Source: Janthinobacterium sp. CG3 (GTDB taxonomy: Bacteria > Pseudomonadota > Gammaproteobacteria > Burkholderiales > Burkholderiaceae_D). Taken from it: DNA of 64,000 nt. Below are positions 23,220-25,674 of this stretch, piece after piece. The position numbers were made by a program, and so were the translations under genes. Every line of letters starts with the position of its first letter. The first letter of the stretch is position 1. The stretch is from positions 2,234,702 through 2,298,701 of the forward strand of contig NZ_KB467824.1 in the NCBI RefSeq assembly GCF_000344615.1, in the 5' to 3' direction. The notes under the pieces are model-generated. The model saw only the letters and a list, made by a program, of their open reading frames with translations. It was not told where the DNA came from and ran no database searches.

Positions 23220-24656
23220 CTACCAGCCTATATCCTGCAGCAAGGGCAGCGTCAGGTCGCGCGGCGGCTCGACCTGGTGCGTCAGGTCGTCGTTGATAAA
23301 CGGCTCCATCAACTGGTTCGGCTTGGCCGCCGTGGTGTAGTGCGACACCGACGACCCCGGCTGGAACAGCGGCGGGGTGTACATCAGGATGCGGTTGCGC
23401 AGATCGGTGCCGGCCAACCTGGACGGGTCGACGTCGAGGCTGGCGAGCACGCCCGACGCGCTGCGCGAGCGGCGATGCAGCGCGGCGCGGATGGCGTTGC
23501 CGTCGGCCTGGCTCACCATCACGGCGGGAATCGTCACGCCGTCGTCGTCACCACCCAGCCCGGCCGCATCGCCCGGCGCGTTGTTGACCACGATCATGGC
23601 GACGGCGCCGGCCTCCTGCAGGTTTCTCGCCTTGTCGACGAAGGCGCAACCGCCGCGGTCGACCAGCGCCACGCTCTGCCTGAGCGCCGCCCCGTTGGCC
23701 GGACTAAGCGGCGCGCAGGCCAGGCCGCGGCCGTCGCGCTGGTCGAGCACCGGCATCACCTGGCCGGTGACGGGGGTGGCGCCCAGCGGCGCACCGAACG
23801 AGGCGTCGCCGACCTCGTACTGCCCGGCCGCCGCGCCGGCCGCCACGCCGCCAATGGTCAGGCGCGATTTCGGCCCGAGCACCGAGGGCGCCGCCGATGT
23901 GACACGCGGGCCGCTCCACGACAGGCCGCGCCCGCTGACGGAGGACGCGGCGCGCTGCGGCGCCGTCATGTTCACCCACACCTGGTTGAGCCGGTTGTCC
24001 AGCAGGTAGTGGTCCCACACCGACGGCAGGCCGGCGAGGAACTGCCCGCTCCGCTCGTCGGTGAAGGTCTGGAAGCCGAGGCCGTGCCCCATTTCGTGCA
24101 GCAACACGGTGACGAAATCGATCGCGTCGGCGTGCTGGTTGTCCAGTCCCAGGTAGAACGGCAGGCCCGGCAGGCAATCCGGCGCCAGCCCCAGGCGCGA
24201 ATTGAAATACGCCACGATGTGCGGATCGGCCGCGGCCGACAGGTCGACGCCGGCCAGCTTGTTCGCCAGCGCCGCCGGATACCAGGTGTTGCTCTTCGGC
24301 GCGGCCGGGAAGTCGGCGTAGACGTCCCACGCGCCGGCGCTGCCGATCACGCCGCTCGAGGCGTTGCACGGCAGCGGCTGGAACGAGCCCATGACGCGGA
24401 TCGGCACGGCGCTGTCGAGCTTGGCGCCCCAGATGTCGAGGGCGTGGCGGAAGGCGATCAGGCGCTGCGCGCCCAGGGTGGTGCCGGCGTTGCCGCCGAC
24501 CGGATCGGCCGGGGTCGGGTCGTTGAAGCCCTCCCCCGCCAGGTTGGCGTTGACGATGGTAATGACGACGTCGGCCCGGGCGCCGCCCAGTGCCAGGCAA
24601 CACAGCGACAGCGCCGCGATGGCGTGTTGCAATACGGCGCGTTTAGTCGGCTTCAT
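23220..24656 (-). CDS. Secreted zinc metallopeptidase-like protein with PA domain
   Basis: 478 aa. Signal peptide MKPTKRAVLQHAIAALSLCCLALGGARA. After a region typical of secreted bacterial hydrolases, the zinc motif HEMGHGLGF (His187, Glu188, His191) appears, followed by a protease-associated (PA) domain (about 295-410; CAPLSPANGAALRQ...VDRGGCAFVDKARNLQEAGAVAMIVVNN). It ends LPLLQDIGW with no PEP-CTERM signal. Its ATG overlaps the end of the PEP-CTERM gene by 14 nt, so the two are coupled. HExxHxxGF suggests an active protease, perhaps acting on extracellular matrix; the frame opens further upstream but only antisense-like residues are found there. Confidence 0.85.
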   Translation of the reverse strand: MKPTKRAVLQHAIAALSLCCLALGGARADVVITIVNANLAGEGFNDPTPADPVGGNAGTTLGAQRLIAFRHALDIWGAKLDSAVPIRVMGSFQPLPCNASSGVIGSAGAWDVYADFPAAPKSNTWYPAALANKLAGVDLSAAADPHIVAYFNSRLGLAPDCLPGLPFYLGLDNQHADAIDFVTVLLHEMGHGLGFQTFTDERSGQFLAGLPSVWDHYLLDNRLNQVWVNMTAPQRAASSVSGRGLSWSGPRVTSAAPSVLGPKSRLTIGGVAAGAAAGQYEVGDASFGAPLGATPVTGQVMPVLDQRDGRGLACAPLSPANGAALRQSVALVDRGGCAFVDKARNLQEAGAVAMIVVNNAPGDAAGLGGDDDGVTIPAVMVSQADGNAIRAALHRRSRSASGVLASLDVDPSRLAGTDLRNRILMYTPPLFQPGSSVSHYTTAAKPNQLMEPFINDDLTHQVEPPRDLTLPLLQDIGW

Positions 24657-25674
24657 GGCGGTGCTCCTCGGCGTGGGTGGTGGTGTGGTCCGGCGCGGCG
24701 CCGGCCTCGGGCGCGGCCGCGCATTGCTGGTGGCTGGCGTCGGCGGCGTCGCGGCCGCTGGTGGTATAGACGGTGGCGCGGTCGCCCAGGTGGACGCGGC
24801 GGGTGCCGTCGGCGCGTAACTCGATCTGCGCCGGCGCGTCCGTCCGGCTGCGCGTCGCCGCACCCGACGGCGTGCTCTCCTGCAAGACCTTGAACTCGGC
24901 GGCGGTGGGTGCGCGCAAGCGGCCGCTGGCGGCGTCGCGCACCACCACCATGCTCTGTGGCTCGCCGGCGCCGGCCGCCGGCGCTATACCCAAGGCGGCC
25001 AGCGCGGCCAGCGCCAGGGCGGCCGCGGCGGCGCGGCGGCCTTGGCGGCGCCACAGCAACAGCGCCAGACCGGCGCCGAACAAGGCGTAGGCGCCCGGTT
25101 CCGGCACGCTGGTGATGACCACGCTGTCGATGCCGATGTAGTCGGCGGCGGCGGCCGGGCCGGTGTAGCGGAAGGCGAACCGGCCGCCGCCGACGACGTT
25201 GACGCCGACGACGACGCGCTGCCAGCTGTCCGGATAGCCGCCCGCCCCCACGCTGACGAGGGTTTGCGCGAAGGTGGCCGGGTCCGCCATGTCGCCCTGG
25301 CCGAAGCGCACCTCGAGCATGTCGTGAAAGCCGGGCGTTGCCGCGCCGCGCGTGTAGAACAAGAGTTGCGTCGGCCCCGCCAGCGCCAGCAGCGGCGTGA
25401 TCAGCCAGTTGTCGACGCCGCCGCTGTCGCCTTGCGCGCTCTCGAAATTGGCGCCGATATAGGAATCGGCAGGGCCGGACTGGGCGGCGAACACGCCCGG
25501 ATTGCCCTGGAACCAGGACCTGCCGGGGGGCTCGCTGCGGTTCACCAGCAGCCAGCCGTCGAGCGCGTCGACGTCGTCGAAACCTTGCGCCAGCACGACC
25601 GCCGCCGAGGCGGCGTGGGCGCAAGTCGCGCAGACCAGCGCAACAAGTGGATAGAGAATACGGGACGTTTTCAT
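24643..25674 (-). CDS. PEP-CTERM protein with internal sorting signal and a C-terminal extension
   Basis: 343 aa. Signal peptide 1-24 (MKTSRILYPLVALVCATCAH...), then a jelly-roll domain of the choice-of-anchor J type (FDDVDALDGWLLVNRS, DNWLITPLLAL, DYIGIDSVVITSV). A PEP-CTERM sorting signal follows at 190-214: VPEPG, hydrophobic YALFGAGLALLLW, then RRQGRR. Normally that ends the protein; here 129 more residues follow, starting with a second Ala/Leu hydrophobic run (215-236, ending PAAGAG) and a polar domain with a His-rich end (HTTTHAEEHRHEAD). Databases name a post-PEP-CTERM-1 domain, which may be this. AAGGCGG precedes ATG 25674. Confidence 0.85.
   Translation of the reverse strand: MKTSRILYPLVALVCATCAHAASAAVVLAQGFDDVDALDGWLLVNRSEPPGRSWFQGNPGVFAAQSGPADSYIGANFESAQGDSGGVDNWLITPLLALAGPTQLLFYTRGAATPGFHDMLEVRFGQGDMADPATFAQTLVSVGAGGYPDSWQRVVVGVNVVGGGRFAFRYTGPAAAADYIGIDSVVITSVPEPGAYALFGAGLALLLWRRQGRRAAAAALALAALAALGIAPAAGAGEPQSMVVVRDAASGRLRAPTAAEFKVLQESTPSGAATRSRTDAPAQIELRADGTRRVHLGDRATVYTTSGRDAADASHQQCAAAPEAGAAPDHTTTHAEEHRHEAD

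Follow-up and report, generated by a model that had tools for sequence, protein, structure and literature searches.

In the window, the whole stretch of 64,000 nucleotides from Janthinobacterium sp. CG3 that was analysed here, an open reading frame (ORF) on the minus strand encodes a protein with a complete PEP-CTERM sorting signal in its middle and a long tail of the post-PEP-CTERM-1 family. By comparative anatomy the gene is identified as a fused gene pair, since its halves are adjacent genes at 60 of 98 related loci and are fused at 20 of the 98. As read from the sequences, the long tail of the window protein and of 19 like loci is a second exported protein. The account considered probable here is that the fusion is in frame, that both sorting signals were kept, that two products are restored from the single chain, and that the small one serves the protease encoded by the overlapping gene.

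Organization of the fused gene

The ORF was located at positions 24643-25674, runs from ATG to TAG with 0 internal stops and encodes 343 amino acids (aa), in the order choice-of-anchor J domain, complete PEP-CTERM signal, signal-peptide-like stretch and post-PEP-CTERM-1 domain; all features described below lie on the minus strand. An N-terminal signal peptide was judged by eye at residues 1-24 (25603..25674, boundary approximate) and is followed by the choice-of-anchor J domain at residues 28-187 (25114..25593; NF038128, 151.5 bits, over the curated cut-off of 30). The initial annotation had described a complete sorting signal in mid-protein at residues 190-214, with VPEPG, a hydrophobic stretch and an Arg cluster. 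This signal (25033..25107; VPEP, hydrophobic stretch, WRRQGRR) was borne out by PF07589 (25.1 bits, cut-off 20.7) and TIGR02595 (19.3 bits, cut-off 16). It had likewise counted 129 residues after the signal, opening with an Ala/Leu stretch and ending HTTTHAEEHRHEAD, exactly as found; with 129 residues beyond it, the signal does not lie at or near the C-terminus. The Ala/Leu segment at residues 215-239 (24958..25032) resembles a signal peptide, having a hydrophobic maximum of 2.60 (10-residue Kyte-Doolittle) and an AxA motif, with candidate signal peptidase I sites at APA (231-233) and AGA (234-236). The post-PEP-CTERM-1 domain, suspected earlier from its name, occupies residues 240-323 (24706..24957) and was matched by NF047450 with 58.3 bits (curated cut-off 28, E 1e-15), which makes the window tail a member of that family. 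Residues 324-343 (24646..24705), ending HTTTHAEEHRHEAD, form a C-terminal tail whose coding sequence runs into the 5' end of the following gene (23220..24656). That gene encodes a 478-aa protease with HExxH and a PA domain and shares 14 nucleotides (nt) with the fused gene. With the tail matching NF047450 and 19 further loci alike, the mid-protein position of the PEP-CTERM signal is judged from these comparisons to be beyond chance. A promoter and terminator scan around the fused and protease genes gave none on the minus strand, PADLOC gave no match, and a scan of genome contigs with the whole fused protein gave no relative, records close to the source genome possibly having been excluded from it.

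Related loci

A search with the NF047450 profile covered 343 genomes of the bacterial family and found 98 copies of the domain in 78 of them, the per-genome counts being lower bounds because only part of the first-look candidates were scored. All 98 loci were taken with about 5 kb on either side where the contig allowed and were sorted by script into pair, fused and other classes, defined by regular expressions and our own start-codon picks. In the pair class (60/98) a separate gene, opening with a signal-peptide-like stretch, encodes the domain and follows a PEP-CTERM gene at a gap of -7 to 183 nt (own start picks); in the fused class (20/98) both halves lie in one reading frame; at the remaining 18 loci there is no PEP-CTERM gene within 500 nt upstream of the domain. 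By profile scan, choice-of-anchor J was matched in 60/60 upstream proteins of the pairs and in 20/20 fused proteins, and the fused gene pair, which had earlier been offered as one option, was thereby upheld. The fused loci comprise 17 from the genus labelled g40, 2 from the window's genus and 1 from g18. When 40 genomes of the window's genus were searched with the whole fused protein, a good-score match extending into the tail was found in the window's genome and in that of one congener (G201) only, which has the same fusion with 50% identity over residues 1-338.

For the history of the fusion, a protease tree was built from 97 of the 98 rows (L073, with a broken protease, was dropped) by a quick method supported by the Shimodaira-Hasegawa-like approximate likelihood ratio test (SH-aLRT) only. 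On this tree the fused state needs at least 5 changes, 3 of them forced by starred branches. In an approximately unbiased (AU) test a single clade of the 20 fused loci plus L114 and L118 was not rejected (p 0.084). L114 and L118, both of g40, are placed within a clade of fused loci, but their domain stands by itself behind a start and signal peptide of its own, which looks like a loss of the anchor J/PEP-CTERM half.

The seam between the two halves

The distance from PEP to the end of the protein is 24-39 residues in the 60 pairs versus 142-181 in the 20 fused proteins, with nothing between. In the fused proteins a hydrophobic stretch follows the Arg cluster, and it was compared with the signal-peptide-like starts of free domain genes and with a control made by reading through the intergenic DNA of the pairs (n=60). 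The mean hydrophobic maximum was 1.92 for fused proteins, 2.49 for pairs, 2.58 for the others (17 of 18 scored, L073 being left out for want of a start) and 0.71 for the read-through control, and a maximum of at least 1.8 was reached by 13/20, 60/60, 17/17 and 8/60, respectively. The window seam, at 2.60, resembles a free signal peptide. AxA follows the hydrophobic stretch in 20/20 fused proteins, 60/60 pairs and 17/17 scored others. The ratio of nonsynonymous to synonymous substitution rates (dN/dS), pooled over the segment and its linker, was 0.38 for a set of six g40 loci and 0.64 for eleven other loci, the smaller sets being contained in the larger ones and 'segment' taking in the linker; these values indicate that the second-signal segment is constrained, more loosely in the set of eleven.

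The neighbouring protease

The protein encoded directly downstream contains HEMGHGLGF at residues 187-195, which includes the HExxH motif, and a PA domain at residues 297-389 (PF02225, 69.9 bits, over the gathering cut-off of 23.9). The metalloprotease profile NF038122 scored 41.1 bits, below its cut-off of 80, with the best match local and centred around HExxH. An AlphaFold model of the protease was good by its scores (predicted local distance difference test (pLDDT) 89, predicted template modelling score (pTM) 0.83), and fold searches with it showed residues of about 260-410 to resemble solved PA domains (Z up to 18.8); among the matches listed the PA domain alone was represented, leaving the catalytic part unplaced.

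A homologue of this protease lies directly downstream of the domain and on the same strand at 98/98 loci of the family. The same holds for 7/7 over-cut-off copies of the domain elsewhere in the order; at a sub-cut-off match (23.8 bits) in G371 (L180), on a contig of 3,043 bases, a protease homologue was not seen. Elsewhere in the class the homologue was found at 10/10 copies, 9 of them over cut-off, so that the protease stands beside the domain at 115/116 loci overall and at 17/18 outside the family. Counted by genome within the family, 78 of the 343 have both, 10 the protease only, 0 the domain only and 255 neither. This near-constant neighbour is a hint at the purpose of the small protein, and a family named by position alone gains a functional lead from it.

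Seven of the ten protease-only genomes belong to genus g28 (L211-L217) and carry, just upstream of the protease and in the place of the domain, a reduced ORF of about 90 aa with a signal peptide; at 7/7 of these loci the small ORF has a weak likeness to the second half of the domain (BLAST E about 1e-3 to 1e-2). Of the other three, G213 and G316 have broken proteases, and in G008 no comparable small ORF was seen. The G316 locus (L220) appears decayed as a whole, with fragments of a PEP-CTERM protein, a small protein and a protease. No PEP-CTERM gene was found among the listed ORFs of at least 110 aa within 900 nt upstream, where the contig reaches, at 9/10 loci of the class; the tenth, L239, starts too close to its contig end for this to be judged. 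At five loci from other families of the class the small protein looks like a lipoprotein: a lipobox was matched by pattern in L231, L234, L235 and L238 and recognised by eye in L233. The proteases of L231, L235 and L239 have, by eye, GlyGly-CTERM-like tails. L174 and L175 are tandem copies of the domain and protease unit, with a PEP-CTERM-like gene upstream of the first copy only. Across the 80 loci with both an anchor J gene and a protease gene, the strongest partial distance correlation was that of anchor J with protease (0.649). Perhaps these two proteins interact.

Proposed export and processing

A profile search of the source genome identified two exosortases, XrtA (TIGR03109, 326 bits, cut-off 208) and XrtB (TIGR03113, 384 bits, cut-off 275), and no exosortase match beyond these; PEP-CTERM matches over cut-off numbered 35. 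Both exosortases and the complete signal are thus as in known PEP-CTERM systems, from which the window protein differs in the 129 residues that follow. The proposed course starts from two genes, neighbours in most relatives and coding for an anchor J/PEP-CTERM protein and a small exported protein, which would have been fused in frame with the sorting signals of both parents kept back to back. The Sec machinery would export the N-terminal domain, the PEP-CTERM helix would span the membrane from outward to inward with the Arg cluster in the cytoplasm, and the second hydrophobic stretch would cross back from inward to outward as an internal signal peptide, a topology derived for both helices from the positive-inside rule. 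An exosortase would then cut near PEP and signal peptidase I at AxA, yielding the two extracytoplasmic products that the split genes would make, with a membrane hairpin left over. Because a signal-peptide-like stretch is kept after the Arg cluster, exosortase and signal peptidase I could restore the two products in this way. In the weakest step, the small product would serve the protease of the overlapping gene as inhibitor or chaperone. The initial annotation had proposed that one gene gives two proteins; this is compatible with the data and favoured by the retained hydrophobic segment ending in AxA, and it is on that footing that we infer it. The gene offers a test case for the ability of XrtA or XrtB to process a PEP-CTERM signal that lies away from the C-terminus.

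A broader interpretation, rated at somewhat below an even chance, is that the fused protein is an export polyprotein matured by two membrane proteases, with the exosortase freeing a surface protein, signal peptidase I freeing a dedicated partner of the protease, and the two signals sharing the Arg cluster. The name 'post-PEP-CTERM-1' would then be a misnomer for a near-obligate companion (an inhibitor, or a propeptide acting in trans) of PA-domain HExxH proteases, and the link to PEP-CTERM would be secondary.

Alternative explanations

Several observations weigh against the restoration of two products and against the role given to the small one. In the defining PEP-CTERM paper of 2006 (PMC1569441), 87% of proteins have fewer than 10 residues after the signal, and the authors proposed that the few with long tails might not be functional. 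Second signals in the fused proteins fall short of free ones in their hydrophobic maximum (1.92 versus 2.49 on average, with 7/20 below 1.8), and AxA, being found in 32/60 controls as well, is by itself weak evidence. Within the eleven-locus set, the PEP-CTERM stretch has changed more rapidly than the rest (dN/dS 0.55, versus 0.26 for the anchor J part). An exact PEP motif is present in 16/20 fused proteins versus 58/60 pairs (Fisher p 0.032), TIGR02595 is matched at E<=0.01 in 14/20 versus 55/60, and PF07589 is matched by 17/20 fused proteins. Given the lower retention of PEP and TIGR02595, exosortase cleavage may have been lost in some fused forms; the window's own PEP-CTERM signal is intact. 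AlphaFold modelled the domain poorly (pLDDT 65, pTM 0.29), at a quality too low for fold searches, and an inhibitor role has no fold backing from it. The partial distance correlation of the domain was 0.335 with the protease and 0.275 with anchor J, the bootstrap interval of the difference spanning zero, and these correlations do not mark out the protease in particular as partner of the domain. The weaker second signals, the reduced retention of PEP and TIGR02595 and the suspicion of the 2006 authors would also suit a single product, in which the unprocessed mid-protein PEP-CTERM helix and the next hydrophobic stretch form a two-helix hairpin by which both outer domains stay attached to the inner membrane. 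This is regarded as unlikely: the hydrophobic stretch and AxA are kept in the fused set, where the segment appears constrained, and the window's PEP motif, helix and Arg cluster exceed both the Pfam and the TIGR cut-offs in a genome that has XrtA and XrtB. Two products might instead come from an internal translation start near the PEP-CTERM helix, which would give the tail its own signal peptide without proteolysis. An in-frame ATG inside the helix of L074, L081, L084 and L086 would begin MARR[ST]RR and a signal-peptide-like stretch, and in L108 and L112 an ATG falls within the helix behind an upstream site matching 5 of 6. Against this, the four MARR cases reach 4 of 6, and the window has TTG codons only between PEP and the domain, with upstream sites of at most 4 of 6; such a start is held to be very improbable. 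The initial annotation had further reasoned that relatives ending at the Arg cluster would reveal a local stop-codon loss or an assembly error. Such relatives exist, literally so in the 60 pairs, but the conclusion does not follow, because the pairs encode the tail in a conserved gene of its own that opens with a signal-peptide-like stretch. In its favour, an anchor J/PEP-CTERM relative in the congener G295 (L179) was matched over residues 8-221 with a stop codon within the match (no protease match was found in this stretch). Against it, the tail is a recognised family, G201 shares the fusion (50% identity), and fused loci also occur in two further genera, 17 in one and a single locus in the other; a local error was ruled out on these grounds, and its probability is taken to be negligible.

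As to the small protein, our best guess from the genomic arrangement is that the tail is a partner, perhaps an inhibitor, of the neighbouring protease. The guess draws on the serralysin system, in which a small exported (periplasmic) inhibitor, AprI, is encoded beside one secreted metalloprotease, AprA, much as in the window. According to PMC4070987, the mature N-terminus of AprI, exposed by removal of the signal peptide, coordinates the active-site zinc of AprA. The window differs in that no sequence relation of its tail to AprI was found in Pfam and in that its protease has a PA domain. A search of the PDB by sequence with the domain gave no match at E up to 10, and a Pfam search with the window's tail gave 0 families. 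Over 87 members of the domain, 30 Pfam families were hit; each of the 25 listed had at most 2 members behind it (best E 0.0018), and no protease inhibitor was present among those 25 of the 30. Whichever products are made, the small protein might equally be no inhibitor: it could activate the protease, serve as its substrate or help with its anchoring or secretion, and the chances of this were put as evenly balanced. What ties it to the protease is adjacency and gene overlap, and the lipobox of several distant versions suits an anchor as well as an inhibitor; nothing decisive speaks against such a role, the likeness of the arrangement to that of AprI (PMC4070987) being the point on the other side. 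For the preferred account of two products, an inhibitor or chaperone role stands as its most tentative element.

Comparison with known systems

NF047450 was compared by its library name only; the present analysis identified its protease neighbour, its occurrence as a separate gene, the versions with a lipobox and the footprint of the start codon. The name 'post-PEP-CTERM' was not met in the literature searched, and titles and the opening parts of abstracts on PEP-CTERM with protease or fusion, and on choice-of-anchor, showed nothing on this arrangement. NF033207, midcut-by-XrtH, has by its name an exosortase signal in mid-protein, as in the fused proteins; it names XrtH, the exosortases of the window's genome being XrtA and XrtB. 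It was matched at E<=0.01 by 2/20 fused proteins, and the window protein gave no match to it at E<=1 and is not a member. In L120, residues 180-261, covering the PEP-CTERM signal and the second-signal stretch, matched NF033207 with 18.1 bits (cut-off 45). A literature search for midcut-by-XrtH gave no description, and the family name suggests that a mid-protein exosortase signal or cut is already recognised for another exosortase.

Release of two exported products from one frame is familiar from Bradyrhizobium FbcH, a cytochrome b/c1 polyprotein in which signal peptidase cleaves at an internal signal peptide, as proposed here for the fused gene. FbcH differs in that its upstream part is a polytopic membrane protein and not an exosortase substrate.

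Gene overlap and the His-rich end

Protease and domain genes overlap at 71/98 loci, by exactly 14 nt at 44 of them (own start picks; protease starts may be mis-picked at L085, L128 and L039 and at 5/98 loci with distances of more than 13 nt). At these 44 loci every fourth-last codon of the tail is NAT (H 36, Y 5, N 2, D 1) and every third-last codon is GNN (E 29, D 11, A 3, G 1), as required by the ATG of the protease gene in the other frame. At 43/44 a sequence resembling a Shine-Dalgarno site fits at 5 or more of 6 positions (a loose test, with no shuffled control). Where the overlap is 11 nt (10 loci) or 8 nt (4 loci), the same residues lie closer to the C-terminus. Of the 27 tails without overlap, 19 have TE as their last residues, beside GGAG at the stop. 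In the window, EEHRHE corresponds to GAGGAG CACCGCC ATG read in a different frame, the Shine-Dalgarno-like site GAGGAG of the protease gene (24664..24669) being Glu-Glu in the frame of the tail.

The His-rich 'domain' of the initial annotation was not sustained: since the tail pattern tracks the ATG and Shine-Dalgarno site of the next gene, it is a short tail mostly encoding that gene's ribosome-binding site and start codon, and its composition appears mostly to be a constraint at the DNA level. A metal-binding domain, considered for the His-rich tail, was rejected as unsupported, the pattern following the next gene's ATG in 44 loci. An apparent His-rich motif can thus be the reading-frame shadow of the start signals of the next gene, which is a trap for motif annotation. 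This footprint does not dictate the His read from the triplet that follows GGAG, and some preference for His may remain.

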